From assembly GCF_003841505.1 (NCBI RefSeq), contig NZ_REGA01000009.1, forward strand, positions 1 through 64,000: a stretch of DNA of 64,000 nt. The letters are read 5' to 3'. The notes below the pieces were generated by a model that saw only the letters and a program-made list of their open reading frames with translations, did no database searches and was not told the origin of the DNA. Source of the stretch: Natrarchaeobius chitinivorans (GTDB taxonomy: Archaea; Halobacteriota; Halobacteria; Halobacteriales; Natrialbaceae). The translations under genes and the position numbers were made by a program. Below are positions 1 through 34,400 of the stretch, piece after piece. Every line of letters starts with the position of its first letter. Position 1 is the stretch's first letter.

Positions 1-191
1 GTCTCATCAGCTGTCGAGTTGTAGCTGCGTCTGAAGCCAGCGAGTGTTCGGCTTTCGCCTGCGGCGAAACCGAACACGAATGCCCAGACGAATGCGGGAA
101 TCTGGAGCTTGCGGTCGCGTTCGACCACGCCGAGTTCCTCGGCGTGCTCTTCGAGGAACTCGGAGGGAAACAATGTAGTGAGCCGACGCAT
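1..191 (-). mobile_element. IS4-family (ISH8-like) transposase, N-terminal part cut by window edge
   Basis: Reading the minus strand from ATG at 191 gives MRRLTTLFPSEFLEEHAEEL and continues open to base 1. This start is typical of the haloarchaeal ISH8-like group of IS4 transposases, as I recall it. Only about 63 residues are visible, so the DDE residues lie outside the window and intactness cannot be judged. The terminal inverted repeat of the element should lie between about 192 and 400, but I could not fix its end. It marks the left side of the accessory island that follows. Confidence 0.7.
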
Positions 192-402
192 AATCCGAGA
201 TGAGGAGGTTTCGTTGTGCACACTCGATACCTCCTCATTCCTTCCGAAAAGTATCCACGATAAGCTGTCGCTGTCACGTGGTTTCACGCTTAGCTAAAGA
301 CGGATAGACGCTCCGTAACCACAACTGGCGATTGATCAAGAGGCTTCTCGTTGGCACTCTCCTGTATGATTTGTAATCAGATCAGCAGTCGAGGAGGTCA
401 AC

Positions 403-1500
403 ATGGGAGAAATAGATAAGGAAACGACTAGAACTCGGCCGTCTGAGACCAATCTGGTCGACGAAATCTCTGGAAAGCAGTTTCGAGACTGGTATCAGGA
501 GCGGGAATTCCGGAAAAACATCGAAAACGGAAAGCCGTATTTCAACGGACCACCGTCGGTTCCGTCGCCCCGAAAACATAGTCCAAGCCAGCTACTGCAA
601 TGCCACCGAAAAATCGCATACCGCCAATGCAACGCGCCAGCAGAAAAACCGGATCCAACCGGGATGTTTTGGTTTGGGTCACAGTTTGAGGAAAGCCTCG
701 TGATAGATTTCCTGAGGGAAGCTATAGTTAATGACCACGAATACGTCTCGAACTCGCTCTGGGTCGATTTCACCGCCCAGACCGATGCTGGTACGATCCA
801 AATCAAGGGAGAAACGGATCCTGTGGTCGTAGATTCAGATGGTGAACCGTTGCTTCTCACGGAGATCAAAACCAAACAATCTGTAGACAACGTTCATTCG
901 CCGAATAAACATCATCGAGCACAGGCGCATGCCTACATGAAGGGATTGAGCGAGAAACACGACCGGAAAGTGACGGAAGCAGTCGTCCTGTACGGCAGTC
1001 GAAAAACTCTGGACGTCAAGGTGTTCCACATCGAATTTGATCCGTGGTTCTGGCGCAATACAGTCCTATCCTGGGCAGAGACACATACTTCGTACCGACT
1101 CAACGAGGAGTTGCCACCGGCAAATCCCGAGTACGGTTGGGAGTGTAGTTTTTGTTCCTTTAGAGAGAGGTGTGGTCGAGGGAGTGCAAGCTACGAGAGC
1201 GTAGGTCCTGTAGGATTTCTGCCGCTCCATGAATACCCTCGAGAAGAGGTGAGGCGTCATCTGGAGAGTCACGAGAATGTAAAGCTCACACCGACCCTCT
1301 CAAAGCAACATCCAGACTTAACGGACAAATTTGGGGTACATGATTGGAAATGTGAACGTTGCGACGCGACCTATTCGCACGATTCAGTTGAATGGAACGG
1401 AAATCTTTCAGAGCCACCCCTCTGTCCCTCTTGTTGCGATCACGGTGTGCCAGCTACACTTCGTGGAGATTCTATCCTCTCACCGAGGAAAAGGGGGTGA
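403..1500 (+). CDS. Cas4-like Fe-S PD-(D/E)XK nuclease with extra C-terminal zinc ribbon
   Basis: A 365-residue RecB/Cas4-type nuclease. Seen: a lone cysteine C67 (LLQCHRK), a GSQFEESL helix near residue 93, D139, then the E154-I-K156 pair of the PD-(D/E)XK core, a Q174-x3-Y178 motif (QAHAY), and C248, C251 and C257. C67 plus these three is the four-cysteine Fe-S arrangement of Cas4/AddB-like nucleases. Beyond the usual end a CxxC (317/320) and CxxC (341/344) form a probable zinc ribbon, which is unusual. The start is fixed by GAGGAGG ten bases upstream. It is followed after 5 bp by a serine recombinase and then TFB, so the three probably form one transcript. No cas1, cas2 or CRISPR array is present, so this is a solo Cas4-like enzyme, likely a 5'-3' or end-processing nuclease of a mobile element. 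The substrate is unknown. Confidence 0.8.
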   Translation: MGEIDKETTRTRPSETNLVDEISGKQFRDWYQEREFRKNIENGKPYFNGPPSVPSPRKHSPSQLLQCHRKIAYRQCNAPAEKPDPTGMFWFGSQFEESLVIDFLREAIVNDHEYVSNSLWVDFTAQTDAGTIQIKGETDPVVVDSDGEPLLLTEIKTKQSVDNVHSPNKHHRAQAHAYMKGLSEKHDRKVTEAVVLYGSRKTLDVKVFHIEFDPWFWRNTVLSWAETHTSYRLNEELPPANPEYGWECSFCSFRERCGRGSASYESVGPVGFLPLHEYPREEVRRHLESHENVKLTPTLSKQHPDLTDKFGVHDWKCERCDATYSHDSVEWNGNLSEPPLCPSCCDHGVPATLRGDSILSPRKRG

Positions 1501-1505
1501 ACGAA

Positions 1506-2447
1506 ATGGACGGAACCCACATTCCGAAGCGAGAGGAATCGATCGCTCAAAGCGGCTCTGAAGATGAGACAGAACTCGACGCTGGTATCTATGCAAGAAC
1601 CTCTTCCCCGTCTCAAAAGTCAAAGTACTCCATTGACGAACAGATTAACCGTTGCTGGGAGCAGTGCGAAGCAGCTGGTTGGTCAGTCGAATACGTGTTC
1701 TTCGATAAAGCAGAATCGGGTCGAGACGTAGACAGGCCACAGTTTCAGAAGATGCTGGAACAAGCCGAAGCAGGTCGGATCGATGTCGTCATATTCTGGA
1801 AGTTAGATCGGTTTTGCCGGTCGCTTGCGGATCTTGTTCGAATAGAAGATAAGTTGCGCTCATGGGGCGTTGGGCTACAGAGCGTAACGGAGTATATCGA
1901 CACGACGTCTCCAGTTGGCAGGTTCAACTTTCGGAACCTTGCATCGGCTGCAGAACTGGAAAGTGATCTCACGAGCCAACGGGTCCAAATCGGCATGTAT
2001 GGACTGGCTAAAGATCACAAGTGGCCGAACGACCACCCACCGCTCGGTTACGAGAAAACCAGCGAGGGACGATTGGAGGTCAACGACGAGGAAGCGTCTC
2101 TCGTCCGGCGGATCTTTCGAATTTATCTCGAGGAGCGCTCCATGCCCCAGGTGGCCTATCTACTGAATGAGAAGGATCTCACAACGAAGAAAGGCGAGAG
2201 ATGGTGTCGCCAAGCGGTAAGAACTGTACTTAGTAACGAGTTGTACACTGGGGAATACGAACTGGCAGACTTCAATGAATATGTTGACGAGTATCAAATT
2301 GTAAGCGAAGACCTGTTCGAAGCAGTCGTCGAGACTCGGTATCGCTTTCAAAATTCGAGTAACGAGATGGATTCACGGCGAAAGAAATCGAAGAGTGAGA
2401 AGATATTGGGCCACTTCAAGACAATGGTTGAGAGAGGTGACGGATAG
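1506..2447 (+). CDS. Serine recombinase (resolvase/invertase family), no zinc ribbon
   Basis: A 313-residue site-specific recombinase. The N-terminal resolvase domain shows IYARTSSPSQ (nucleophile probably S33, with R31), the DKAESGRDVDRP segment near residue 68 and FWKLDRFCRSLADL near 98. A Recombinase-domain-like part follows, ending with a VLSNELYTGEYE segment. The family typically has 450-550 residues with a zinc ribbon and coiled coil; here the protein stops soon after the Recombinase domain. I chose ATG 1506 because GGGGGTGA lies just upstream, although the frame is open from 1392. Its TAG stop shares a base with the GTG start of the TFB gene, indicating translational coupling. Likely role: excision, integration or inversion of the island. 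Confidence 0.85.
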   Translation: MDGTHIPKREESIAQSGSEDETELDAGIYARTSSPSQKSKYSIDEQINRCWEQCEAAGWSVEYVFFDKAESGRDVDRPQFQKMLEQAEAGRIDVVIFWKLDRFCRSLADLVRIEDKLRSWGVGLQSVTEYIDTTSPVGRFNFRNLASAAELESDLTSQRVQIGMYGLAKDHKWPNDHPPLGYEKTSEGRLEVNDEEASLVRRIFRIYLEERSMPQVAYLLNEKDLTTKKGERWCRQAVRTVLSNELYTGEYELADFNEYVDEYQIVSEDLFEAVVETRYRFQNSSNEMDSRRKKSKSEKILGHFKTMVERGDG

Positions 2448-3244
2448 TGACCGAAACAGCTTGCCCACAATGCGATGGGCAAATAAAAGAGATGGATCCG
2501 AAGCCTGGTACCTCTGTTTGCCAGAATTGTGGATTAGTGGATCCAGAAACGAATACCGAGCAGTCAAACGGGGATAATAAAGCGGATGGATCGAACACCC
2601 CCGTACAAACAGAAACCACATCGCCGAACGTAGCGTGGGTGAACGACGTCAGTGTCAAAGACTCGTCTGATGAAAATATAGTTGAACTACTCTTATCGCT
2701 TGACGGGGCAGCTCAGCAGTTGAGGTTTAGTAGAAACAATCGAATTCGTGCAGCCGAACTGGTGATCGCTGGGTGGGAAAATCGACTTCTACACGGCCGC
2801 AGTCAGGATGCACTCGTGGGTGCATGCGTTTATCTGGCATCCCGGGAAAGTGAACGGCCTGTCCCCGTCAGTATTGTAGCAAAGGTTGTCGATGAGAGGG
2901 AAGGGTTGATCAGTAATTCATACCGGGACCTGATGAGGACGTTAGAACTTGAGATACCTGTTGCCGGACCAGAGGCCTACGCTCAATATTTAGGAGAGGA
3001 GCTAGGAATTCAGGACGGTCTCGTTCGAGAAGTTGAGAACGTTCTAGACAGGGAAGTCGATATAAGCGGGAATCCAGCTGGTATCGCTGTTGGAGCACTC
3101 TACCTCATTGCCACCGCTCATGGTCACGACATAACACTAGTTGAGGCCGGAAAAGCGGCTGGTGTAGCTAAAGAAACAGTCTGGAGAAAAGTCAGCGATC
3201 TCCGAGAATTAGAAGTCTGTGAGGGCCACTTGATTCGGTCCTGA
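2447..3244 (+). CDS. Transcription initiation factor TFB paralogue, element-borne
   Basis: A 265-residue TFIIB homologue. The N-terminal zinc ribbon has C6-x2-C9 and C25-x2-C28, followed by a short linker and two cyclin-like repeats (first about residues 80-165, second about 170-262, the latter containing ISGNPAGIAVGALYL and a helix-turn-helix-like end AAGVAKETVWRKV). Chromosomal haloarchaeal TFBs are about 300-330 residues, so this one is short. The conserved B-finger region is not obvious. The GTG start overlaps the TAG of the recombinase gene, and GAGGTGA at 2433-2439 serves as ribosome binding site. Its 3' end overlaps the convergent recombinase by 36 bp. An element-encoded TFB may direct RNA polymerase to the element's own promoters; that is inference. 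Confidence 0.85.
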   Translation: MTETACPQCDGQIKEMDPKPGTSVCQNCGLVDPETNTEQSNGDNKADGSNTPVQTETTSPNVAWVNDVSVKDSSDENIVELLLSLDGAAQQLRFSRNNRIRAAELVIAGWENRLLHGRSQDALVGACVYLASRESERPVPVSIVAKVVDEREGLISNSYRDLMRTLELEIPVAGPEAYAQYLGEELGIQDGLVREVENVLDREVDISGNPAGIAVGALYLIATAHGHDITLVEAGKAAGVAKETVWRKVSDLRELEVCEGHLIRS

Positions 3245-4558
3245 CCCATCATTCTCATCGCTACTTAGATCTTCACGGGCCTGGTCGGCAGGTGTGTCTC
3301 CTGACCACGTGAACTTGAGATCTGGATGTTCAAAACCGCGCTGGTATTTGTCTGGAAGTAAATCAGTTCCAAACATATTGTCGCAGCTCAAGCACGTGTA
3401 TGAGTAATCCCATTCTCCGCCCTCAGCCCGGTCGATCTCAAAGTGTTCCGTTTCGGGGCAAAAAGGACACCGTAATGGGAGGGTGTCGTGTAATTTGTTG
3501 AACTCCTCTTGTGTGAGAAGAGGTCCCTGGTGGTCACATTCTTGGCAGACGTAGTTTTTCAACTTCGTTCCCCAACGTTCCAGATCCCCATTATGCTGTA
3601 GATCACCGCCGCATTTTCTACACTGCGTGTGTATGCTGTCGAACAGAGTAAGGACGTACTCTTCGCCATATTGCTCAGCGGCTCGCTCTATAGGTTTAGG
3701 AACCGCTCGAGTTCCTGTTGGATCTGAACTCCGTCTATCAAGGATTTCTTGGACTGCATTGAAGACCTCTAGATCGATGACTGCAAGCTGTGGATTCTCT
3801 TTGATGACTTCGCCTTCGAGTGTTAGTTGGCCCAGACACAGACGGCTCTGAAGAAGTGTTTTAAGTTGAGAGTCACTTACACTTTGGTTATATTGGTCAT
3901 TGATTGTCCGTTTCACCTCTGCTCGGTTTTGCTCTTGCCGATATAACTCGAAGGTTTCAGGAATGATATCCTCACCTTGCTCAGTCAACAAAACGTAATC
4001 ATTTTCGTCTTTGTAGTAACCGAAAGGTGGCTGTCCGAAAGGCCACTTACCCTGCTCAAGCTTTCCAATCTGGCCGTCGCGTGCATTGTCACGGATCCGC
4101 TGGTACCATTCCCGTGAGAAAACGACTTGGCGAACTAACATCTGAAAGTCGTAAAGATCATCCCAGTCAAAGTAACCGTGTGTGCCAGCGTAGAGGATGA
4201 TGTCGGCTTCCTTCAGCTGTTTCAGATATTCGAAGCTCTCCCAGGGATCCGCCCGGGTTAGACGATCAAGTTTCGAGACGCCTACAACATCAATCTCGTC
4301 CTCCTCTGCGAGAGCTGCAATCTCTTCTAATGATTCTCTCTTTACCGTAGCCGCTGATTCAGCGACTTCCACTTCTTTCCGAACATCTCCGTCAACACTG
4401 TTAACTTCTTCCTCGAGGTTATCGAGTTGCCTCTCGGTACTCTGACCAGCCATTTGAGGACCAGTGCTTACGCGCGAGAGAAGCGCCCATCGATCATCAT
4501 CCACCTTATCACGTCGCAAGAGACCCAGCAACAGAGGGAAGAAAATGCTATTCTCCAT
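3209..4558 (-). CDS. Second serine recombinase with C-terminal zinc ribbons
   Basis: About 449 residues if started at ATG 4558. The catalytic motif ALLSRVSTGPQ (S31 in this numbering) and VSKLDRLTRA identify a serine recombinase; PFGYYKDEN and the LQSRLCLGQLTLEG segment belong to the Recombinase domain. The C-terminal part carries four CxxC pairs (CRKC, CQEC, CPFC, CLSC), that is two zinc ribbons, unlike its partner at 1506. The start is uncertain: the frame is open to 4702, but that would run into the acetyltransferase remnant. GTG at 4504 just before the catalytic motif is the other candidate. It converges on the TFB gene with a 36-bp overlap. Having two different serine recombinases in one island is unusual. 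Confidence 0.8.
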   Translation of the reverse strand: MENSIFFPLLLGLLRRDKVDDDRWALLSRVSTGPQMAGQSTERQLDNLEEEVNSVDGDVRKEVEVAESAATVKRESLEEIAALAEEDEIDVVGVSKLDRLTRADPWESFEYLKQLKEADIILYAGTHGYFDWDDLYDFQMLVRQVVFSREWYQRIRDNARDGQIGKLEQGKWPFGQPPFGYYKDENDYVLLTEQGEDIIPETFELYRQEQNRAEVKRTINDQYNQSVSDSQLKTLLQSRLCLGQLTLEGEVIKENPQLAVIDLEVFNAVQEILDRRSSDPTGTRAVPKPIERAAEQYGEEYVLTLFDSIHTQCRKCGGDLQHNGDLERWGTKLKNYVCQECDHQGPLLTQEEFNKLHDTLPLRCPFCPETEHFEIDRAEGGEWDYSYTCLSCDNMFGTDLLPDKYQRGFEHPDLKFTWSGDTPADQAREDLSSDENDGSGPNQVALTDF

Positions 4559-4684
4559 GGACAAGAATTGAAGCAGAATAGTCGCGCCTGCTGTAAGGAT
4601 GATTAGCCCCGTTTTAGTATGGATGGATTGCCCACACCCTCGCGCATATGCACTTAATGACTTTAGGATGGACAGCTCACCTAT

Positions 4685-4927
4685 ATCTATACCGCAACAC
4701 ACCCGCTCGACGCGGGCGAACGAATCAAAGGCCCGGAGTACGGCAAACCCGTGACGGTTGGTGATAACGTCTGGATCGGTGGACGAGCGGTTCTCAACCC
4801 CGGCGTCTCAGTCGGTGACAACGCCGTCGTCGCGTCCGGGGCGGTCGTGACTGAGGACGTCCCCGACGACGTGGTCGTTCGGGGGAATCCCGCGAGCGTA
4901 GTGAAAGACCTCGAGACAGACGGGTAA
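4685..4927 (+). pseudogene. 3' fragment of maltose/sugar O-acetyltransferase
   Basis: The plus frame ending at TAA 4925-4927 encodes [13 protein letters not shown], then [16 protein letters not shown] and [23 protein letters not shown]. This is the C-terminal left-handed beta-helix part of the Maa/NodL-type acetyltransferase family (complete proteins are about 185 residues). The N-terminal 100 or so residues, including most of the active site, are absent upstream; the reading breaks at about 4680 where low-GC island sequence begins. The rest of the gene is not in this window. It therefore marks one boundary of the inserted or rearranged island. Confidence 0.85.
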
Positions 4928-8270: not shown

Positions 8271-8613
8271 TGTCACCACTCGGGTCACCAGCCGATTATG
8301 CCTTTCGGAACCAACAACTCCGGGGTGAAAATTGTCCGGTGAGGCCGTCATTCGCCGTTCCAGGATTCTCTTCTCGGCTGAAACCACCGGTACGGCCGCG
8401 AGTCGACGCCGCGGCTCTCTTTAAGTGCTTCTGGTCACAAGGTGAAGATACGACGGGAAGTCGGCTTCTCTCAAACTCACATCTCGCCAGTGAGCGGTGT
8501 CGCTCGTCTGAGTCCATTTTCTCGTCTCGAGCGTCGGCATACGGTCTATCGTACCGATGTAGCGGTGGGGCCGCAGCCGGCGGCCCACCGGAAATGACCT
8601 CCAGTAGTCCCTC
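8271..8613. other. Intergenic gap with 41-bp motif C
   Basis: About 340 bp between mptA and the methyltransferase gene. No credible gene. It contains copy 1 of repeated motif C (8419-8459); the rest shows nothing I recognise. Confidence 0.6.
8419..8459 (+). repeat. 41-bp promoter-like motif C, copy 1
   Basis: A 41-bp stretch starting CTTTAAGTGCTTCTGG and ending ACGACGGGAA that recurs base-for-base at 10752-10792 in the same orientation. TTTAAG resembles a haloarchaeal TATA box, which would place a transcript start near GGTGAAGATACGAC. Downstream sequences differ, although both continue to a CTTCTC that could pair with the GAAG inside the motif. Function unknown: a promoter for a small RNA or a dispersed regulatory repeat. 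Confidence 0.6.
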
Positions 8614-9387
8614 TCAGTCGTGTTTTCGGGCGTTCAGTGAGACGCTCTTGACGCCGTAGGTCTGACAGGCGTTCGCCGCTCGCTCGGAGGTAAACTCGTA
8701 GTCGACGTTTTCTTCGACTGTGGTTACGTCCAGTCCCGCCGCCTCGATCAGGTCGGTGTAGCGGTCCACTTGTTCGGCACCACCGATACAGGCAGCCCAC
8801 AGGTCTGCATCGTTCTTGATGCTTCCCGGCATTTGCTGTTCGCTGATGATATCCGAGAGGGCGAGTCGTCCACCGGACCGCAGCACCCGGAACGCCTCCT
8901 CGAAGACCCGATCCTTCTCGGCGGAGAGGTTGACCACGCCGTTCGAAATCACCGCGTCGAACGAGTCGTCCTCGAACGGAAGCTCCTCGATGTATCCCCG
9001 ACGAAACTCGACGTTGTGAAAGCCGTTTTCCGCCGCGAGCGTTCGGGCTTTCTCGACCTGTTTGTCCGTCATATCCACGCCGGTGACCGTCCCGGTTTCG
9101 GTTACGTGCAACCCGGCGACGAACGCGTCCATCCCCGACCCGCTCCCGAGGTCGAGTACCGCTTCGCCCGGCTCGAGGTTCGCCAACTCGAAGTGGTAGC
9201 CGACGCCCGCGAACGAGTCGATCGCTGCGTCCGGAACGTAGTTCAGATCGTCGGGTTCGTATCCGAGGCGCTCGGCGAGCTCCCGTCCGGTCTCGAAGTG
9301 AAACTCCGCGTCGGACGACTCCGCGACGTCGCCGTACATCGACTTGACCTCGCGTTCGAGTTTTTCCGTGTCGAGTGATTTGCTCAT
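8614..9387 (-). CDS. SAM-dependent methyltransferase, ArsM-like
   Basis: A 257-residue class I methyltransferase of the arsenite-methyltransferase-like group. The SAM site is VLDLGSGSGMDAF (near residue 77), followed by TGVDMTDKQVEKA and RVLRSGGRLALSD. The lead-in LNYVPDAAIDSFAGVGYHF is typical of ArsM relatives. True ArsM uses conserved cysteines; here the motif usually read as ISNCVINLS is VISNGVVNLS, so that cysteine is missing. C215 region (AACIGG) and ANACQTYG remain. Arsenic methylation is therefore doubtful; another soft-metal or small-molecule substrate is possible. GAGGCGTGA lies just before ATG 9387. A small open frame ends 4 bp upstream. Confidence 0.75.
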   Translation of the reverse strand: MSKSLDTEKLEREVKSMYGDVAESSDAEFHFETGRELAERLGYEPDDLNYVPDAAIDSFAGVGYHFELANLEPGEAVLDLGSGSGMDAFVAGLHVTETGTVTGVDMTDKQVEKARTLAAENGFHNVEFRRGYIEELPFEDDSFDAVISNGVVNLSAEKDRVFEEAFRVLRSGGRLALSDIISEQQMPGSIKNDADLWAACIGGAEQVDRYTDLIEAAGLDVTTVEENVDYEFTSERAANACQTYGVKSVSLNARKHD

Positions 9388-16935: not shown

Positions 16936-17051
16936 TAAGCGTAGTGCCGAGGGGAATTAGAACCTCGAAGATTGCTCCGGTGGACAGTTACAGCAAGCTG
17001 CATCAATCTGAAGAAGACTGCTCCGACGACCGACCGTCCCGAATCGGCGTC

Positions 17052-17138
17052 GTCATACGGTTTACTGTAAGTCATTTCCGGCGCAACCGCGACCCGGGCG
17101 GCGGTTGCGCCGGCAAATCGTTACAGCAATCCGTATCA
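17052..17138. repeat. Palindromic repeat family B, copy 2
   Basis: An 87-bp palindrome from TCATACGGTTTACTG to CAATCCGTATCA with inner stem GGCGCAACCGCGACC...GGTTGCGCC. The terminal TCA (17136-17138) is the TGA stop of the ferredoxin gene on the minus strand. Confidence 0.85.
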
Positions 17139-17468
17139 GTCGTCGGCCGCCGCCGTCTCCCCGCCCGTCGCCTCGAGGTCACTCTCGATGCTCGGCGGGT
17201 AGACGCCACGCTCGAGTTTCAGGTCCGACTGCGGGCGGGCCATACAGGTGAGCGCGAACCGTTCGGCCTCCTCGTCGGTTAACCCGCGTGCGGCCGGCTG
17301 GGTGACCTCTCCCTCGAGAATCTCGGCCGAACACGCCAGACACATTCCGACCCGACAGGAGTATTCCTGGGCGATGCCCTCCTCGAGACACCGGCTGAGA
17401 ATCGTCTCTTTCTCCGAGCAGGTGATCGTCTCCCCCGTCCCCACGAACTCGATCGTGTACTCCGTCAT
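17136..17468 (-). CDS. Plant-type 2Fe-2S ferredoxin
   Basis: 110 residues. The cluster ligands are in SCRVGMCLACS (first three cysteines) and LTCMARP (fourth), in the usual CX4CX2C...C spacing. The protein lacks the long acidic N-terminal insertion of the classical halobacterial ferredoxin, so it is a smaller paralogue for electron transfer in the cytosol; the partner is unknown. Its C-terminus TGGETAAADD ends exactly where family-B repeat copy 2 begins. Start ATG 17468. No partner gene is adjacent. Confidence 0.9.
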   Translation of the reverse strand: MTEYTIEFVGTGETITCSEKETILSRCLEEGIAQEYSCRVGMCLACSAEILEGEVTQPAARGLTDEEAERFALTCMARPQSDLKLERGVYPPSIESDLEATGGETAAADD

Positions 17469-17572
17469 GAGTGTCGGTACGCAAGAGCGGACTAAAACTC
17501 TTTATTCCGGTTCTGTCCCGTCGGATAGGACGAAAATCAGGGTGAGGGACGTATTTTCGACCGGTTCCGCCG

Positions 17573-17809
17573 ATGGAACCGGACCACGAGGTTCGTCCAC
17601 TGATTAAGCACCGTGAGTTCACATCGCTCTTCAAGGCATGGAACGCACGCTTAGACGCTGATCTCTACGGGCAGCGGAGTCAATCCGAGACTGTCAACTC
17701 AACACTCAAGCGAAAGTACGGTGCGTTCGTCCGCTCACGACGCTGGTGGAAACAATTCCGTGAACTCACCATCGCCTGTCTCGTTCATGATACCGACCGA
17801 TCATTCTGA
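17573..17809 (+). pseudogene. 3' remnant of an IS5-family transposase
   Basis: The 78-residue frame contains VRPLIKHREF, ARLDADLYGQRSQSETVNST, KYGAFVRSRRWWKQFREL and a final CLVHDTDRS. This matches the C-terminal catalytic region of IS5-type DDE transposases (the final E is in SQSETVNS). About two thirds of the protein and the left end are missing, so it is inactive. It borders the accessory segment 17.8-21.3 kb. Confidence 0.8.
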
Positions 17810-17844
17810 GCGGTCAATGCAAGATGAACGTATCATAGAACAGC

Positions 17845-18096
17845 TCAAGCGGATGCAGAACGCCGTTTTGCAGCGTGTACTCCGAGAAGATAGATTGGAA
17901 TGACGAGAAGTTCGACTACGACTAACGCGATGACAGTACTGAAAACGAATGCAAGCCCCACTCCTAGAACGAATACAGATGCTCCTACGACTACCGGGGA
18001 GCGCGAGCCATACTTTTTCGCCTCAGAATAGACGAACCACGAGATGAAAGCTTGTACGACGAGGAATATCGGGATTCCAATACCGAATGCAGGCAT
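17845..18096 (-). CDS. Small three-span membrane protein, unknown
   Basis: 83 residues with hydrophobic stretches IGIPIFLVVQAFISWFVY, SPVVVGASVFVLGVGLAFVF and TVIALVVVELLVIPIYLLG, and a basic tail AAKRRSASA. Base composition is lower in GC than the core genes. The start MPAFGIG is directly at the first helix. No family recognised. It sits between the IS5 remnant and the inverted-repeat-bounded operon. Confidence 0.6.
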   Translation of the reverse strand: MPAFGIGIPIFLVVQAFISWFVYSEAKKYGSRSPVVVGASVFVLGVGLAFVFSTVIALVVVELLVIPIYLLGVHAAKRRSASA

Positions 18097-18447: not shown

Positions 18448-18855
18448 TTAGACGACGTCCCTCGAGATGCTGAGTTCGCTGTCGGACCCGTGTAAAACGT
18501 TGATCCAGGCACCACTAGCTGGGCTAATGTCGTCGGTGAGTTCGTCGCTGTCTCGGTCGGTGGCAGCGGTCACGGTTGCCTCGAACTCCGCTCCGATGTC
18601 GAGATCGGGTTTTTTACTCGGTGGCGACCCGTCTTCTTCGGGTCCAGCGAAGCCATCGAAGTCCAACGCCTCGTCGTAGACGACTTCCCCGGTATCGACG
18701 TTGGTGATCGTTACGTCGATCGTGACTGGATTTTCGTGCCAATTGCTGATACGGATGTACTTTGGTTCTTCACCTTCGATGTCCAGACAGCCGGCTGCCA
18801 GGATCGCTCCGACGGCCGCCGCGTTTCCGAGGACCGACCGACGTGTGCTTGGCAT
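18448..18855 (-). CDS. Tat lipoprotein with Ig-like/beta-sandwich domain
   Basis: 135 residues from ATG 18855. MPSTRRSVLGNAAAVGAILA followed by AGCLD is a Tat signal with a lipobox. The mature part has alternating strands (KYIRISNWHENPVTIDVTI and GAEFEATVTAATD) suggesting a small beta-sandwich. Its ATG lies 4 bp after the TGA of the HELLH protein gene, so it is the last gene of a coupled operon. An extra six residues are possible from 18873. Function unknown; it may bind or escort the protease-like protein at the cell surface. Confidence 0.7.
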   Translation of the reverse strand: MPSTRRSVLGNAAAVGAILAAGCLDIEGEEPKYIRISNWHENPVTIDVTITNVDTGEVVYDEALDFDGFAGPEEDGSPPSKKPDLDIGAEFEATVTAATDRDSDELTDDISPASGAWINVLHGSDSELSISRDVV

Positions 18856-18859
18856 CAGT

Positions 18860-19543
18860 TCAATATTCGTCACTCAACCAACGAGTAGCTTCTGATTCGG
18901 TACACCCAGAGAGGTCAGGCGTCCAGTTGGGAGACCCCGAAGGATCACCTTCGTACCCACAGAATTCGGACGGTGGGTGATTGGTGTCAACCCCGGGGAG
19001 CGAAAGTGCATACCCCGTCGCCATCGGCGTAATGGTGGTCTGAAACCAGGATTCCTCAACGTGACCGCAGGAGTGGTCGTCACTTCTAGAAACGTGCGTT
19101 CCTGGACAGTTGTCGTCGCCGTTCATCAACGAGTGGAGGAGTTCGTGTTTGACTATATTTCTGAAAGCACTTTCGCTCCCGATAGAACTCTCCATAAGGT
19201 GCGCATTGGCGACTGCGTAGCAGCTATCATCGGATCGGAAAAAACTCCGGCTAGCACCCGCTGGGACCTCGCTTGACAGGTCGCGTTTGTAGAGGAGAAG
19301 TCCCTGATTACCATCGGGAACGAAGTCCGCATGGACACCTGGAATATCTCCTTCCTCGAGTTCTTCCAGATAGTCACTGTAATCATTGTGGTCGGGGCCA
19401 TCTCGTGTGCCGTGGGAGGTGGCTGAATAGTCAGTCCCAAGTTGGTCCGCGAGGTTTCCAATGGCATCCACCGCCACGCTGAAGGTGTCATCGTCGACGT
19501 CCTCGTCCCGGAACATCGTTATATCCAACGCCGGACTGGACAT
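18860..19543 (-). CDS. Putative zinc metallopeptidase-like protein (HELLH)
   Basis: About 227 residues. The key motif is KHELLHSLMNGDD near residue 137, an HExxH zinc site in which E would be the base; a later histidine (PGTHV or DHSCGHV) could be the third ligand, as in metzincin-like proteases. Four to six cysteines (DDSCYA, DNCPG, HSCGH, FCGYE, SGCTE) suggest disulfides, hence an extracytoplasmic protein, yet no signal peptide is visible. ATG 19543 overlaps the TAA of the upstream gene (TAATG), so the two are tightly coupled and may act as a complex. It could also be a structural relative without activity. Confidence 0.6.
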   Translation of the reverse strand: MSSPALDITMFRDEDVDDDTFSVAVDAIGNLADQLGTDYSATSHGTRDGPDHNDYSDYLEELEEGDIPGVHADFVPDGNQGLLLYKRDLSSEVPAGASRSFFRSDDSCYAVANAHLMESSIGSESAFRNIVKHELLHSLMNGDDNCPGTHVSRSDDHSCGHVEESWFQTTITPMATGYALSLPGVDTNHPPSEFCGYEGDPSGSPNWTPDLSGCTESEATRWLSDEY

Positions 19544-20520
19544 TAGCAACCCACCCCCCTTGTGACGTCGACAAACAGAAGTTCCGACCCGATTCTCGCC
19601 CAGCGACGATCATCGAGGGTCGCAGCCGGATCCACGTCGATGCGCTTGAGGAACTGTGCGACTGCCTCGCTCGGCTCACCTTTCTCGGTGATACCCCCCT
19701 CACTTGCGGCAGTAAGAACTTCTTTTTCCTGGACTGTGAGTAGCGATAATTGATCGTCCACCGCAAGTTGCTTCGTTACGAACCACTCGTCGAATTCCGC
19801 GGCCGTCTTCGCGACAGATTCGGTACGGACATCGTAGACCTCTACGTTCGCCTGCATCGGCCGGAGAGAAAGACGGTGACAATCTCCGGTTTCGTCTTGG
19901 ACGTAGTGGGGGAAATCCACGTCGGCCAACTGGGTCGGAACGTTCTCGGACGCACCGAACACGTACCCGCGCTGGCGGGGCTTTGTGTCATCCACTGAAG
20001 TGTCAGGTTCCGTTTCGAGCAGGTGCAGATACCGCTCGCGGCCGATCGCACCGTGAATTGCCTCCCAAGCAGCGGAGGTGAACTCGTTGACCAGGGTGAC
20101 GGAGTCCGTTCCGAGCTCTTTTCCGTCTACGGACTCGGCGACGAGTACCGGTGTCTCTCTTGTTTCACGACCGGAAAATGAAACGTCGTACTGGTAATAT
20201 TCGTCGTTGACGACGAAGCCAGTACCACGAACCCACGGTCGTTCGTATCGGGTGGTTCGACCGTTTTCGATAGCGGTGTTGATCGTCGACTGTGCATCGT
20301 CAGCGAGCGTCTCGAACTGATCCGGTACGACCACGGCAGGTGACCTGTCGTCGTATCGTTCGATCTCGACAGTCAGGTGTCGGGTTGCACTCCCGGTCTC
20401 GTCCGGGGTTCGTTGTTGATCCTCGTCGCGAGCAGCGGCAACCGTAGTCAATCCAGCAGTTGCCGAAGCTCCTGCCGCAGCGAGGACTATACGGCGGGGA
20501 AGTGGGTTGTCTTTCGACAT
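19543..20520 (-). CDS. Exported protein of unknown function, first gene of IR-bounded operon
   Basis: 325 residues from ATG 20518-20520 (MSKDNPLPRRIVLAAAGASA). The PRR plus hydrophobic stretch is a probable Tat-type signal ending near AAA-RDEDQ. The mature part has no motif I recognise; it contains acidic segments and RPWVRGTGFVVNDEYYQYDV. There is no cysteine until the very last residue. It leads a three-gene operon with the HELLH protein, overlapping it by a stop-start TAATG. The TTTATATT box about 27 bp upstream suggests a leaderless mRNA. Confidence 0.65.
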   Translation of the reverse strand: MSKDNPLPRRIVLAAAGASATAGLTTVAAARDEDQQRTPDETGSATRHLTVEIERYDDRSPAVVVPDQFETLADDAQSTINTAIENGRTTRYERPWVRGTGFVVNDEYYQYDVSFSGRETRETPVLVAESVDGKELGTDSVTLVNEFTSAAWEAIHGAIGRERYLHLLETEPDTSVDDTKPRQRGYVFGASENVPTQLADVDFPHYVQDETGDCHRLSLRPMQANVEVYDVRTESVAKTAAEFDEWFVTKQLAVDDQLSLLTVQEKEVLTAASEGGITEKGEPSEAVAQFLKRIDVDPAATLDDRRWARIGSELLFVDVTRGVGC

Positions 20521-20541
20521 GCATACAATTGTTGGAGACAC

Positions 20542-25301: not shown

Positions 25302-25380
25302 ATCTGATAAGATACCACCACTGATATAATTGTTCGCCAGTGAGACAGTTGTTCAGTAATGGAACGTCCATAAAAGAAAG

Positions 25381-25387
25381 TAATATA
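25381..25387 (+). promoter_or_regulatory. TATA box of the giant surface-protein gene
   Basis: TAATATA lies 25-31 bp before ATG 25412. This supports a leaderless transcript beginning at that ATG rather than the earlier in-frame ATGs at 25340 or 25391. Confidence 0.5.
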
Positions 25388-25411
25388 GATATGGAATATA
25401 TTTTGTTAACA

Positions 25412-28400
25412 ATGATTCTTCGACGAGACCCATACGCGATTGGGTTATTATTACTTGTTTTTGGATTGGTATTCACTCCGGGAGTGTTTGCGGTATCGGA
25501 CGATCTTTCTAACTCGGACGTACTGATAAACACGTTTGAAGGCGGTACGGATGGCGTCTCGGTGAACGAAGCTGATGTTGTCGGTGGTGCTGAAGCGACC
25601 GCTGGTGGGACGTACGAGAAACCGACTCGAACAACGTCGTTTTCGGTGAGCTCGAGTTCGGACGGGACGAGTCTCGGTCCGAATCTCCTGGTGAACCCTA
25701 CGTGCACTGTCGCCGGACAGGGTGGGGGCGAGGAGCCGCTTCACTGGACGGTCGAGCAGGGAGAGATCGAATGCAACGAGCCCGAGCCCGATTTTATGCC
25801 GGATCCCAGAGTGGGCGACTATGTGTTCATTGACTGGGAGGACCTGGAACCGACGACCGACGAGTCCATCGTCACGCAAACGGTTCCGGTCACGGGTGGT
25901 TCTGAGTACCAGTTCAGCGTGTGGGTTGGGTCCGACGAGGTAGACGACGACTATGCCCAGTTCGAGGTCCAGTTTCTCGACGACGGTAGCCCTATCAGCG
26001 AGGGAGTGATCGATAGCGGTGAATTCCAACCTGAAGACCACACAGAACCCGATCAGTTCGTCGAGACGACGGCGGCCCCGGAGAACGCCGACGAAGCGGT
26101 CGTGCGAATAATTCTGGTAAACGGTGGAGATTTCGGTCTCGATAGGCCGTTGCTCTGGGCGGACGACGTCCGATTGCAGGAGTTCAGTGACGCGCCGACG
26201 GCGTTCGACGTCGAGGGTGTCGAGACGGGGATCGAACAGACGATTGCCCCCGACTGGACGCTCTTCGATGACGAGTTCGGCGAGGACGAAGACGACCGTG
26301 GATTCGACGACTCCGGAGAGATCACTCACTTCGGCGGCGGCGACCTCGGTGGGAGTGTCACCGACAACGTCGCGGGAGAAACAGCCGAACTCGCCGGTGG
26401 CGACTTACAGGTCAACGCTGACGGATCGTTCAGCGTGACGAACCCGACGCAGACGGGTACGTTCGAGTTCGAGTATCGACTGGGATATGAAGGTGACCAC
26501 GACGATGCGACGGTCGAGATCGAAATTTTCGATCACGAACTGGAGAACCCGCTGTGTGAGGAGTGGGATAGCAACGCCCAGGACCAGCCAATCGGGTGGG
26601 ATGGGGAAAGTATCTCCTGTCAGGACCTCGAGGACCTCCCGTTTACCGACACCGATCACACGGCCGTCGGAGAACGGTCGTTCACGGATAACTACATCAA
26701 TCTCGATGACGAGGTCCACACCGAACAGACCGTCTACGTCGTCGGTGGGAAAACCTACACCGTTTCGGGACTGTACGGAACCGACTCCGAGGACTACTCC
26801 GGAACGATCGAGTTCGAGTACCTCGATTCTGACGGCCACGTGATCGCGGCCGAGGGGTTCACGCTCGGGGAACTCCAGTCCGAATCGACCACGGATTTCG
26901 ATCGATTCACTGAGATCACCGACGCACCCGACGACGCGAAACGGGCGACGCTCCGTCTTACGGTCGTCCGCCCGAGTGGACACGACGATCCGGCGGGGGT
27001 CTACTTCGACGATCTCTCGATCGATCGCGGAGACCCCGGTGAAGAGCCGGTGAACGCGTACGATGTCGAAACCGAGGTCGGTATCTATCACACGTTCGAT
27101 CCCTCGGACACGCTGTTCGATGACTGGGGCAACGGGGTAGACGAACTGGGGACGCCCGAAGCTGAACTCGTGAACTTCGGCGGTGGCGACCTCTCGGGGA
27201 GCGTGACCGACCACGGCCCCGGTGAGTCAGTTCCCTTCGCTGGCGGGACGCTCACCGTCGAAGCCGACGGCTCGTTCAGTCTCGAGGAACCGACCGACGT
27301 CGGGACCCACACCTTCGAGTACGAGACCGAGAACGAACACGACTCGAGCACTGCGACGGTCGAACTCTGGGTCAGAGACAGTACGCTGTTGGACGCTGAC
27401 TGCGATCCAGATAGCTTCGAGGCGTGGGACGATGTCTCGCCCGGCAATGGAAACATCGACTGTCTCGACCCACAAGAGTCCGGAACGGGTCAGCCGAACG
27501 GAGAGCAGAATCCGCCGGTCCCTCCGTACGCGATCGGTGACCGTGGGGGAGACGGGTACGATGCGGTCGGTGAACAGACGGTGCCAGTCCGGGGCGGATA
27601 CACGTACGAACTGGCCGGGTTCGTTGGAACTGAAGCGACCCCCGAAGATAGCTACGTCACGCTCGAAGTCGACTATCTGAACGAAGACGGAACGAAAATC
27701 ACCGCGTCGGGGGACGATGGTGCCGATCTCTCCGAGATGCGGTCGGAGGGAACGACGGAGTTTGACGCGTTTTCGGACACCACTGTTCCGCCCGACGAGG
27801 CGACCCACGCAACCGTTCGGATCTTCGTACACAGCCCGGAGGAGATGGATCTCGGCGGCGATGCCTATGCGCGCGCGTACGTCGACGACCTCTCGTTCGA
27901 ACTGCTCGGAACGCCGCCCGAAGCAAACGACGTCGATCTCGAGGTCGATGCTGCCGATACGCTCACTACGTCAGTTGTTGCGGACCACGGCCACGGAGTC
28001 GACGATCTCGGCGAACCGGACGCAGACGTCGCGAGTTTCGGCGGTGGTGAACTCGCTGGCGACGCGACCGAATACGACGCTGAGGAGACGGCCGACCTCG
28101 CGGGCGGGGACCTGACGATCGACGCCGACGGCTCGCTCGAGTTGGTCGATCCGTCCAAATCCGGAACCTATCAGTTCGACTACCGCCTCGAGAACGACGC
28201 GGGGTACGACGATGCGACGGTGACGATCGAGGTCGAGTCGTTGACCGTCGACGGCACCGTTACCGACTCGATTGCCGACGGAGAGCTGGGAATCGCGGGC
28301 GCGACAGTGAGACTCGACCACGAAGACGGCGAGGAGAGCTCCGAAACCGAAACCGCCAGCGACGGTTCGTACGAACTCGAGGTCGGGCAGAGAGGCGACT

Positions 28401-31400
28401 TCGAGTTGGCGGTCGAGGCATCCGGATACGAGATGAAAAGCGTCCCCATCACGCTCGACGAGGGAGATAAAACCCGGGACATCGGGCTGATCGGAAACGA
28501 ATCGGTCAGCGGCACAGTCTCGGATACCACGTTCGAGACGGGGCTCGACGGAATCGACGTCGCCGTCGGGAACGGACTCGGGACGTACACCGCCGAGACG
28601 GACGAAGATGGCGAGTATACCGTCGAGAACGTTCCCGGAACCGGTGAGGAATACGTGGTGAGCGTCGATCAGACCGGCTGGGACGATAATTCGACAACTG
28701 TGACCATCGACGATGGCGACGAGGTGACCGGCGTGGACCTCGCGATCACCGGCGATGCGCGGGACGCCATCACGCTCAGTGACGGAGAAACGGACGCGCC
28801 GCTCGAGGGGACGACGGTGCGCATCGAGCACGAGACGTTCGGCGTCGCCGAGGACGCGTTTACGACCGACGGGGACGGAGAGATGGAGATTGTCCTCCCC
28901 GGTGGCTTCACGTACGAGTACACGTTCTCGCACCCGGGGTACGAACCGGCCGAAATCCCGCTTCGCTCGTTCGATCCGGGCCATAAACTGGGTGCGGATT
29001 ATAAACTTGGCGGCAACGCCGAGATCACCGGAACCATCACTGACGGCGAAACCGGCGAGGGAACCGGGGGTACGACCGTGACCGCCCAGAACGGGGCAGG
29101 TGCCTACGAAGCGACGACGAGCGCCGATGGCTCGTACACGGTCGAGAACGTCCCCGGTGGTCACGACTACGACGTGACAATCGAGGCTGACGGTTACGAA
29201 ACCGTCGTCGAGTCCGACGAAGCAGTCGGTGACGGGACAACCCACACCCTCGATTCCGGACTGACGGGTAATGCAGCGATCGAGGGGACCGTCGAAGACG
29301 AGCGTACGGGAGACGGGGCCGAAAACGCCGATGTAACGATCGTCTACCCACGTGACGGAGAGTTTACCATCGAGAACGCAACCGATGCAGATGGCGAATT
29401 TTCCATCGAAAACGTCCCCGGGACCGACGAGGAGTACACCGTCGTCGCACGGGCGGCCGGGTACGACCACGGGAGTGTGGCGGTGACCGTCGAGGATGGT
29501 GTACTCGCAGACGTGGGAGCGATCGAACTCGCCGGGAACGCTTCCGTGAGCGGAACGATCGAGGACGCGACGTTCGAAAGCGGCGTTCCGGACGTGGAAG
29601 TGACCGTCTCGGATGGACACCTCGAGTACACGACGACGACCGACGAGAACGGGGAGTACACCGTCGAAGGGGTCCCCGGAACCGGAGTCGAGTACACGGT
29701 GAGTACCGATCCGGACGGCTGGGACGAGAACTCGACGACCGTGACGGCTGGAGACGGTGAGGAGGTACAGGCTGACCTCACCGTCTCGGGGTCGAGAACC
29801 GCTACCGTTGAGGTCCACGACCAGTTGCTTTCCGATGCTGGGCAGTCACATCTCCTCGGTGATGCGACGGTCACCGTTGAACACGATACGGGAGGAATTG
29901 AGCCGACGCTCGGCGAGACGACGGTTACGACCGCGAGCGATGGAAGCCCGGTCGCGATCGAGCTTCCCGAACTCCCCACACACCTGGATTTCGACGGGAA
30001 GACTGACCGGTTCGTACTCACGGCAGAAAAGAACGGGTACGAATCAGACACCGTCTACGACGAACACGGTGTCTCTCACTCGATACAATTCTCCGTCTCT
30101 GGAACCGCCTCGGTGAGCGGTACCGTCGTCGATGAGGCAACCGGTGAGGGAATCGAGGACGCCGACGTCGCGCTCGAGTATCCGACTGGCGAAGAGATCG
30201 TCTTCGAGGATGCCACCGATGCGGATGGAGCGTATGCGATCGAAGACGTCCCTGGAACGGATGAGGTGTACACGGTCCACGCGAGCGCTGATGGCTACGA
30301 CTCCAGCGCGACGACGACTGTCGTTGACGACTGGGAAGATATCGAAGACGTGACAGTCGGGTTGAACGGGACTGCGACGGTCAGTGGCTCCGTCTCGGAT
30401 ACGACGTTCGAGACGGGACTCGACGGGATCGACGTCGCCGTCGAGAACGGGCTCGGGACGTACACCGCCGAGACGGACGAGAACGGTGAGTACACTGTCG
30501 AAAGCGTGCCCGGTACAGGCGACGCGTACACGGTGGGCGTCGATCCGATCGGCTGGGACGGGGAGTCGACGACCGAAACGATCAGTGACGGCGACGACGT
30601 GACCGACGTGGAGTTCGCGCTCACCGGCGACGCGCGGGACACTGTTACGCTCAGTGACGGAGAAACGGCCGCGCCGCTCGAGGGGACGACCGTGAGCATC
30701 GAACACGAGACGTTCGGCGTCGCGGAGGACGCGTTCACGGCCGACGGGGACGGAGCGATGGAAATCGTGCTTCCTGGCGGGTTCACGTACGAGTACACGT
30801 TCTCTCAACCGGGGTACGAACCGGCCGAGATCCCGCTTCGCTCGTTCGATCCGGGCCACGAACTGTCGGCGAACTATGTACTGGGCGGCAACGCCGAGAT
30901 CACCGGCCAGCTCACCGACAGCGAGAGCGGAGACGGAATCGAGGGTGCGACCGTCACCGCCGAAAACGGTGCCGGTGCGTACGACGCAACGACCGACGAG
31001 AACGGCGAATACACCGTCGAAGACGTTCCCGGTGGTCACGACTACGACGTCGCGATCGAAGCGAGCGGTTACGAAATCGTCGTCGAATCGGACGAATCCG
31101 TCGGTGAGGAGACGACTCACGCTTTCGACGCCGAACTGACGGGAAGCGCAACGCTCGGCGGAACCCTCACGGACGAGACGTTCGGGACGGCTCTTGAGGA
31201 CGTCGAAGTCGACGTGGCCGGTGAGCAAGAGTACGTCGTGGAGACGGACGAGGACGGCGAGTACGCGGCGACCGTCGCCGGAACCGGTGAGGAGTACACC
31301 GTCACCGTCGATCCCGACGGATGGGTCGAGACGAGCGAGACCGTCGAACTCGGTGACGGCGAGACGGTGACTGACTTCGACGTCACCCTGGGTGGCGACG

Positions 31401-34400
31401 CAGCAGCCGAGATCACGCTCGAGGATAGCGAAACCGGTGGCCCGATCGACGGGGCGACCGTAATCGCTCAGAACGAGACGCTCGGTGAGAGCGATTCGTT
31501 CGTGACTGCCGGTGACGGTATCGCCGAGATGACGCCGCTTCCGGGCGGATTCGTCTACGACGTCACGATCGAGGCCAACGGCTACGATGGCGAGGTGGTG
31601 ACGAACGTATTCCTCGCTGCCGGTTCGTCCGAGAGTCGAACTGACGCCCTGTCTGGAAACGCCACGATCTCCGGGCAGGTGACCGACGACGCGTTCGGTG
31701 CGCCGATGGAAAGCGTGACCGTCACCGCCGAAAACGGTGCCGGAGCGTACGAAGCGACGACGGGTGGAAACGGCGAGTACACGATCGAGAACGTTCCCGG
31801 AACGGGCGAAGTGTACACCGTCACCGTCGACGAAGCGGGTTACGAACCGACTGCGGAGACGGTGACCGTCGCCGACGGCGCGAGCGTTTCGCGGGATCTA
31901 ACCGTCGTCGGTGACGCCGAGATCACCGGAACGGTGACCGATCTACTGACCGAGGACGGAATCGAGGACGTGACGGTGACCGCGACGAACGGCGCTGGAG
32001 CGTACGAGACGACGACCGACGAAGCGGGCGAGTACGCCGTCGAGAACCTGCCCGGTGGAGAGACGTACGACCTCGTCGCTGACCGCGACGGCTACGGACA
32101 GATGACGCGAGACGGAGTGGCGCTCGACGCTGGCACGCAACAGACCGAGAACGTCGTCCTCGAGCCGATCGGTGAGACGACGGTGACCGGAACGGTCACC
32201 GACGAGGTGACGGACCACCCCATCGCAGGCGCAAACGTAACCGTCGAACTCGACGACGACCGCGTCGACACCGGCCTCGCGTTCGAAACCGAGACGAACG
32301 CCGACGGTGTCTACGAGCTGACCGACGTCGTTGGCGGCTACGACTACACGCTTACGATCGATGCGGACGGCTACGACGTCGACACGACGTCGCTCCACGT
32401 CGATCACGACGACGAGGTCGACCGCTCGCTGACCGGCGACGGCGCACTCGAGTTCGACGTCGGTGGCGAGCAGTTCGGCGACGGACTCGAGGGTGCGACC
32501 GTCGAGGCGACGCCGGTCGACGGCCACGGCACCTACGCCGGGAGCCACACCGGAAACGGAACCTACACCGTACCCGAGCTGGCGAGCGCCGTCGAGTACG
32601 ACGTCACCATTACGCTGGCTGGCTACGAGCCGACCGAATTCGACGCACGCGTCGAGGAGCCCGGAACCACGACGCTGTCCGAGCCGGCGTTGCTCGACGG
32701 CGACGCTTCGCTCGAGGTAGATGCCACTGATTCGCGTACCGACGAGCCGCTTGCGAACGTTTCGGTGACGATCGAACGCGAGAACGACGGGGCACAGGTC
32801 GAGCCAGTGCCGACGACCGATTCCGACGGAGTGCTCGCGGTGACGGTTCCCGGAACGGGTGACGAGTACGCCGTCATCGCGAACGCCACGGGCTACGACG
32901 AGGCGACGGTCACGACGGACGGAGTCGACACCGGTGCGACGGTCCCGGTTTCGATCGCACTCGAGGGTGATTCGACCATCGAGGGGACCGTGAGCGACCG
33001 CGTGACCGGCGACGCGATCGAAGGGGTGACCGTCACGGTCGACGCGGATGGCTCCGCCTTCGAGACGACGACCGCCGCGAACGGCTCCTACCTGCTGACG
33101 GCCGTTCCGGGCGAGCAAGCGTACGAGGTGACACTCGAGGCGGACGGCTACCGATCCGAATCGACGGTCGTTACGCCGTCGGCTGAGACGCTCGTCGTAT
33201 CCGACTCGCTCTGGCTGGCTCACGACGGCGACGGCACGCACGAAGAACCGTACCGGGTCACGAACGCGGCCGAACTGCAGGCAATCGGGGCGGAACCCGA
33301 CGCCCACTACGTGCTCGAGGAACACGTCGACGCCGCCGAAGCCGACGCCTGGCACGGTGGCGACGGTTTCGAGCCGATCGGCGACGACGCGTCGCCGTTC
33401 ACCGGCTCACTCGACGGACAGGGCAACGCCATTTCGACGCTCAGCGTGGAGCGACCTGGCAACTCTTCGGTCGGCCTGTTCGGTACCGTCGACGGGGGTA
33501 CGATCGAGACGCTCGCGCTCGAGAACGTGAGCGTCACGGGCGACGAACGGGTCGGCGGCCTGGTCGGCTCGCTCTCGGCGGGATCGATCGACGGGGTCGT
33601 CGTGAGCGGGAGCGTCGCCGGCGAGGAGTCGGTCGGTGGTCTGGTCGGCTCCGGCGGCGGCGTTTCGGCGTCGGCCTCGAGTGCCACTGTCGAGGGGACG
33701 ACGGCCGTCGGCGGGCTGGTCGGTGAGAGCGACGGGGACGTCTCCGGATCGTTCGCCGTTGGACAGGTGACCGGAACGACGGCAACCGGCGGTCTCGTCG
33801 GCGAGGGGACGCCGCACGTCGACTCGAGTTACTGGGACGCGACCGAAACGACCCAGAACCACTCGGCCGGTTCGCCTGACTCCAATGGATTGAACGCGGA
33901 CGAACTGGCCGGTTTAGCTGCCCAGGATACGGGTCTCGATTTCAACGAGACGTGGATCGCGCTCGACGATGCGTACCCACGCCACGGGTGGATGCTCGCC
34001 GATCTCGACCTGTCGCTCGCCGACGACTCGCTCGAGCCGGGAGCGACGACTGACGCGATCGTCACGGTCGATTTCTTCGACGGCTCGACGGCGTACGCAA
34101 ACGAGACGGCGGCGCTCTCGAGTTCCGATCAGGACGTCATCGTCATCGAGAACGCGACTGTTGAAGCCGTTGGCGATGGAATCGCAACCCTCACCGTGAA
34201 TATCGACGTCCTCGAGTCGACACTCTCCGTGGAGGTTGAACCGCGCTCTTCGTCGTCGGGCTCTTCGAGCGCTCCCGCCGACGGTGAGAAGACAGCAGGT
34301 AGTGGCGAAATCAGTGATGACGCTGGCGAATCCGGTGACAGTGAAGCCAGCGAAACCGACGACGTGACGGCGCCCGCTGATGAAACCGGTGACGACGATG

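Follow-up and report, generated by a model that had tools for sequence, protein, structure and literature searches.

The window analysed here is a 64,000-nucleotide stretch of Natrarchaeobius chitinivorans (genome G000) from the start of contig NZ_REGA01000009.1. It begins with the N-terminus of an IS4-like transposase (1..306, minus strand), the end of a multicopy IS that lies outside the module described below; the contig starts here, and the same 306 bp are found at the ends of several G000 contigs. Because the window opens inside this multicopy IS at a contig end, it does not include the left part of the element.

Four genes follow. The first (403..1500, plus strand) encodes a Cas4-like PD-(D/E)XK nuclease that combines four Fe-S cysteines with an additional zinc ribbon at the C-terminus. 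A gap of 5 bp separates it from serine recombinase A (1506..2447, plus strand; 313 aa), whose start is backed by relatives and which has the catalytic and Recombinase domains. Recombinase A overlaps by one base a TFB homologue (2447..3244, plus strand, GTG start) composed of a zinc ribbon and two cyclin repeats, without B-reader and B-linker. Serine recombinase B (3209..4558, minus strand), with catalytic and Recombinase domains and two zinc ribbons, is convergent with the TFB gene and overlaps it by 36 bp, its stop lying at 3209. The longest frame of B reaches 4702; this start was rejected because it falls in host DNA past the element end at 4684, and the ATG at 4558 is favoured by relatives. 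Upstream of B we find the right end of the element (RE), a half crossover site ATAGGTGAGCTGTCCATC at 4667..4684 (minus strand) with the core AT at 4683-4684, followed by the 3' half of a maltose O-acetyltransferase-like gene (4685..4927, plus strand). This gene is the interrupted host target and its 5' half is on contig C41.

The initial annotation had described this gene order, the 5-bp and 1-base junctions and the second recombinase facing the others, all of which are present once the starts are slightly corrected. The gene names agree with Pfam, NCBIfam and PADLOC, with Resolvase and Recombinase domains in both recombinases, TFIIB in the TFB and PF12705 plus Cas4 models in the nuclease. The description as a low-GC island is likewise confirmed, the GC content of the four-gene stretch being 0.48-0.54 compared to 0.60-0.70 for most of the window. 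Elsewhere in the window, another patch of low GC (0.53-0.58) contains three consecutive minus-strand ORFs (18448-20541), two of them with twin-arginine-like or lipobox-like N-termini, and a 3072-aa ORF with a hydrophobic N-terminus at 25340-34558 (plus strand) probably encodes a giant secreted or surface protein.

Proteins of the module

The nuclease scores 42.8 bits with the model of the CRISPR-associated Cas4 equivalog TIGR00372, below its cut-off of 65. It has the hallmarks of Cas4-like PD-(D/E)XK nucleases, namely the catalytic D, E-x-K and Q (D139, E154, K156 and Q174) and the four Fe-S cysteines (C67, C248, C251 and C257), all invariant in 17 relatives. The gene is present in 42 of the 293 genomes of the same order and also occurs without its module partners, either before a tyrosine-recombinase module (G197, G128 and others) or after Orc1/Cdc6. 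Members of the nuclease family are found directly 3' of Orc1/Cdc6 in many haloarchaeal replicons (L089-L093, L095, L097, L251 and others). Viral contigs and phage records contained no match to the nuclease. Because it neighbours tyrosine recombinases and Orc1/Cdc6 too, the nuclease might be a general accessory of mobile elements and not a part of strand exchange.

Solo-Cas4 or MGE-Cas4 nucleases (PMC5704561) and casposons resemble the module in that a mobile element carries a Cas4-like nuclease that has four Fe-S cysteines. Casposons are recognised by the presence of PolB together with an integrase of the Cas1 type, whereas the module is without Cas1 or CRISPR, serine or tyrosine recombinases adjoin its nuclease, and the nuclease carries the extra zinc ribbon. 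As the initial annotation had stated, Cas1 is not among the four genes, as judged with Pfam, NCBIfam and PADLOC, the full G000 element being split across the assembly.

Both recombinases belong to the serine recombinase superfamily: PF00239 is above cut-off in each, the residues R31/S33/R102/R105 of A and R29/S31/R99/R102 of B are invariant, and both proteins match serine integrase structures. A lacks the two zinc ribbons of B, and we infer that the two proteins work together.

The B-reader and linker are missing in all 14 module TFBs aligned, which keep the zinc ribbon and cyclin repeats; four other haloarchaeal TFBs in the same comparison have at least some of this region. In canonical TFB this region extends into the polymerase active site (PMC7289017). 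Its absence from the cassette proteins makes it doubtful that the TFB redirects transcription, as had been proposed from the gene content, and such a role is unlikely in the ordinary sense. The protein may instead be a module-specific regulator or a DNA-binding accessory. It can be likened to Sulfolobus TFB3, a TFB paralogue unable to replace canonical TFB (review PMC7289017); the module TFB differs in having a zinc ribbon and both cyclin repeats, in lacking the reader and linker, and in being located on a mobile element.

Recurrence and exchange of the module

We inspected 17-20 kb around the nuclease and recombinase B matches. Recombinase B is matched in 19 of the 293 order-level genomes, largely at the places of the nuclease, and in 17 of these 19 genomes, spread over seven family-level groups, the TFB and recombinase A are in the same locus; this figure counts loci and not B orthologues, because some of the weaker recombinase B matches are recombinase A itself. 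A scan of genome contigs with recombinase B added one locus, in Natronosalvus hydrolyticus. Two arrangements are seen: nuclease-A-TFB-B in the window, G117, G243, G221, G173, N. hydrolyticus and Haloarcula marina, and nuclease-TFB-A-B in, for example, G119, G271, G124, G135 and G282. The H. marina copy lies on a complete 187-kb plasmid (NZ_CP100409), where it is annotated merely as nuclease, recombinase, hypothetical and recombinase. The prospect that the four genes are never neighbours elsewhere, raised with the initial annotation, did not hold: they occur together at different sites, and since the same genes are neighbours in many genomes the association is not due to chance.

Within the family to which the window belongs, the nuclease is about 80 % identical between serine-type loci (G000, G243) and tyrosine-type loci (G197, G128), which also have their upstream DNA in common, and the homology between the two types stops at the nuclease stop codon. 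This abrupt end indicates a swap of different recombinase modules at the position immediately following one and the same nuclease. A recurring tyrosine-recombinase operon occupies the slot of the serine module in L066, L067, L074, L080 and L081, in the order nuclease, protein of about 200 aa, ribbon-helix-helix/winged-helix protein, tyrosine recombinase (often duplicated) and tyrosine recombinase pair.

Ends, targets and carrier islands

The window and G117 are 92 % identical over 322-4684, the identity ending at CACCTAT, and the right end is identical in G243; the flanks are unrelated among the three genomes. The right end falls exactly at 4684, where the 18-bp end repeat GATGGACAGCTCACCT-AT adjoins the 3' half of the acetyltransferase gene. 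On contig C41 the 5' half is followed immediately by ATACCTGCAGTGTCCATC, an inverted match of the right end, and rejoining the halves over the AT core results in one uninterrupted acetyltransferase reading frame. The core could be AT or TA within ATA in G000 and TA or AT within TAT in G117; we assign it to AT, the only option that fits both junctions jointly. In a genome-wide pattern search of G000, G117 and G243, perfect copies of the end repeat were found solely at element ends. A left end of G000 inside the window was considered and rejected, the window starting in the IS and the left end (LE) being that of contig C41.

The crossover site lies just outside recombinase B, and the left arm beyond it carries another conserved gene and in several cases also a pair of tyrosine recombinases. 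Beside the G000 left end is a conserved gene of about 400 aa without Pfam match (G000:C41:4429-5616, L179), relatives of which adjoin the closed site in G243, G221 and G177. This left-arm gene is 30-36 % identical between G000 and G117, compared to 89-91 % for the nuclease and recombinase B of the right arm, which suggests that arms have been exchanged at the site.

The closed form of the site, with RE and LE joined as a single near-palindromic sequence beside recombinase B, is found in G243, G221 and N. hydrolyticus and probably also in G031, and near-palindromes adjoin the second recombinase in several module variants. Tandem copies as the source of the G243 closed site were rejected, the G243 genome having no other end repeats. 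G173 has the right end, and a pattern search there for a recognisable left end gave nothing above background. For G244, an insertion between RE and LE was considered; the left-arm gene is 23 kb away and matching end repeats were not found. Upstream of the second recombinase in G119 and G271, about 150 bp separate att-like half-sites (TATGAT...; L068, L069), and these stretches differ between the two related genomes, an arrangement reminiscent of small insertions into the crossover site.

Two further targets could be reconstructed. In G117, RE (C1:239,941) and LE (C1:196,911) are both at one chromosomal host site, which is unrelated to the acetyltransferase gene and is present in empty form in G150 and G299. 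On the H. marina plasmid a transposase gene is cut in two: its N-terminal portion ends at RE (21,011), and its C-terminal portion starts at about 87,430 beside the matching LE. Joined over the core AC, the halves keep the frame (attB GACGGT-AC-AGTTGG, read-through YQWATVQLVGNAVPLV). The position of the transposase halves at RE and LE and the restored frame indicate that NZ_CP100409 is a cassette-bearing circle of about 120.7 kb inserted into one of about 66.4 kb, and each of the two parts has one orc1/cdc6 gene. A simple 4.4-kb transposon was rejected, as RE and LE are far apart in G117 and H. marina.

The exchange is thus conservative, at a 2-bp core and with exact restoration of attB, and two interrupted genes are restored. 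The three attB sites have essentially the core alone in common and do not define a specific attB. Nothing supports the earlier proposal that the nuclease processes ends: the junctions are exact, with no bases lost or duplicated.

In several Natrialbaceae the cassette resides within defence islands that a tyrosine integrase has inserted into tRNA-Met. The island of about 50 kb that holds the G117 module has a 41-bp direct repeat, and a tyrosine integrase of 337 aa is encoded at its other end. The first bases of the repeat are the 3' end of a tRNA gene with an intron; this gene is intact in the empty relative and is an elongator tRNA-Met by its CAT anticodon loop, with no ARAGORN call. The G243 island (3,311,113-3,351,321) has the same repeat and G128 a related one. 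PADLOC identifies type II RM, DinG-like and UvrD/Cas4-like genes in the G117 island, DrmMII and TmtA in G243, type I RM and a SIR2-like gene in G128, and HmaB/HmaC and LmuB in G119. In G000, contig C20 appears as a tandem integration hotspot, with two tyrosine integrases (8299-9312 and 16978-18048, L222) each followed by the tRNA-Met 3'-end repeat CCGTCAGGGCCCA, the first being 96 % identical to the G117 island integrase; no link from this integrase and repeat to the module was found. The G117 and G243 islands resemble SNJ2-type tyrosine-integrase elements, for which a provirus att site of 13 bp is described (review PMC8371274), in their tRNA-Met target and short direct repeats only. They differ in that the tyrosine integrase is at the other end of the island and the serine module is a second system.

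Proposed mode of action and relation to known systems

We conclude, from the sequences compared here, that the four genes very probably form a module of the serine-integrase type, by which the carrier circle is inserted at targets with essentially no more than a 2-bp core in common. The two serine recombinases would act on the near-palindromic site directly upstream of recombinase B, the half-sites of the unrecombined element being joined around the core (RE-AT-LE). When such a site recombines with a target that matches it in little beyond the core, it would be split into two ends and the carrier DNA inserted precisely, with nothing lost and no duplication of the target; a target on the same molecule could lead to inversion. 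Adjacency and the 2-bp-core geometry suggest that A and B made the observed joints. The initial annotation had the two recombinases handling integration and excision; integration can be read from the junctions, whereas a division in which one integrates and the other excises finds no support.

It is conceivable, if doubtful, that the closed site is instead a dimer-resolution (res/dif-like) site keeping the plasmid or excised island monomeric, with fusions as rare accidents. The closed site is common, near-palindromes accompany the second recombinase of module variants, the site is symmetric around a 2-bp core as in resolvase crossover sites, and a tyrosine-recombinase module can occupy the same slot. 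However, two of the three closest Natrialbaceae copies have recombined with unrelated DNA, and H. marina provides a fourth, more distant and clean example.

A switch that flips tens of kilobases within islands by recombining with nearby host sites, without integrating, is a distinctly less probable reading. In G117 the exchange partner of the module site is a host site 2.15 kb beyond tRNA-Met, and the final order there is explained by one 43-kb inversion between a closed site in the island and this host site, but integration followed by a tyrosine-integrase event at the tRNA gives the same result. No invertible pair of sites is seen, and the H. marina cointegrate, in which both transposase halves have the same orientation, speaks directly for insertion and against inversion. 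In G000 the two are indistinguishable because the assembly is broken there.

A defence module, in which nuclease and TFB would attack foreign DNA and the recombinases would do no more than mobilise the two, is very improbable: the nuclease is Cas4-like and the carrier islands are rich in defence genes, but Cas4 is the sole PADLOC match, recombinases and TFB having none, the conserved partner of the recombinases is the crossover site, and the defence cargo differs between islands while the module is constant. Of the self-contained mobile or defence-like module first proposed, the mobile and recurrent character stands. The module is not self-contained, forming the right arm of larger elements such as plasmids or tRNA-integrated islands, and it is not itself a defence system, though defence genes are numerous in the islands that carry it.

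Serine integrases are well known. The integrase-type module proposed here resembles the large serine integrases (TP901-1, phiC31, SPbeta YokA/SprA) in the Resolvase, Recombinase and zinc-ribbon domains of B, in conservative recombination at a 2-bp core and in the attP/attB/attL/attR logic. It differs in having two recombinases, of which A is without zinc ribbons, an inverted repeat as donor site, three targets that share essentially the core only, and an archaeal operon that includes a TFB and a Cas4-like nuclease. Serine recombinase pairs also mobilise islands in the SCC elements with Ccr, and the best score of recombinase A is to CcrB; this score is 133 bits against a cut-off of 900, far below the Ccr cut-offs, and in contrast to SCC the module has no fixed chromosomal target gene and carries other accessory genes. 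IS607-type serine transposases share the relaxed target choice, whereas the module has a larger, multi-gene carrier with end repeats and no TnpB among its genes, and scores below the IS607 model cut-off. In the open-licence papers searched we found no description of this module, an archaeal A/B pair with a TFB and a Cas4-like partner, a symmetric donor site and relaxed targets.

These observations pose the question of why a site-specific recombination operon retains a B-reader-less TFB and a Cas4-like nuclease. We speculate, with little confidence, that the two recombinases form a heteromeric pair assisted by the TFB, which would bind at the crossover region and serve as accessory or directionality factor, the nuclease supporting serine and tyrosine versions of the module alike. 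If true, a general transcription factor would have been recruited into DNA recombination.

Its ends, core and donor site being defined, and with three targets reconstructed and a plasmid cointegrate at hand, this archaeal system is testable at once. If our reading of a serine-integrase-type module is right, it would explain haloarchaeal plasmid fusion and the movement and rearrangement of defence islands, and it may offer genetic tools for haloarchaea.
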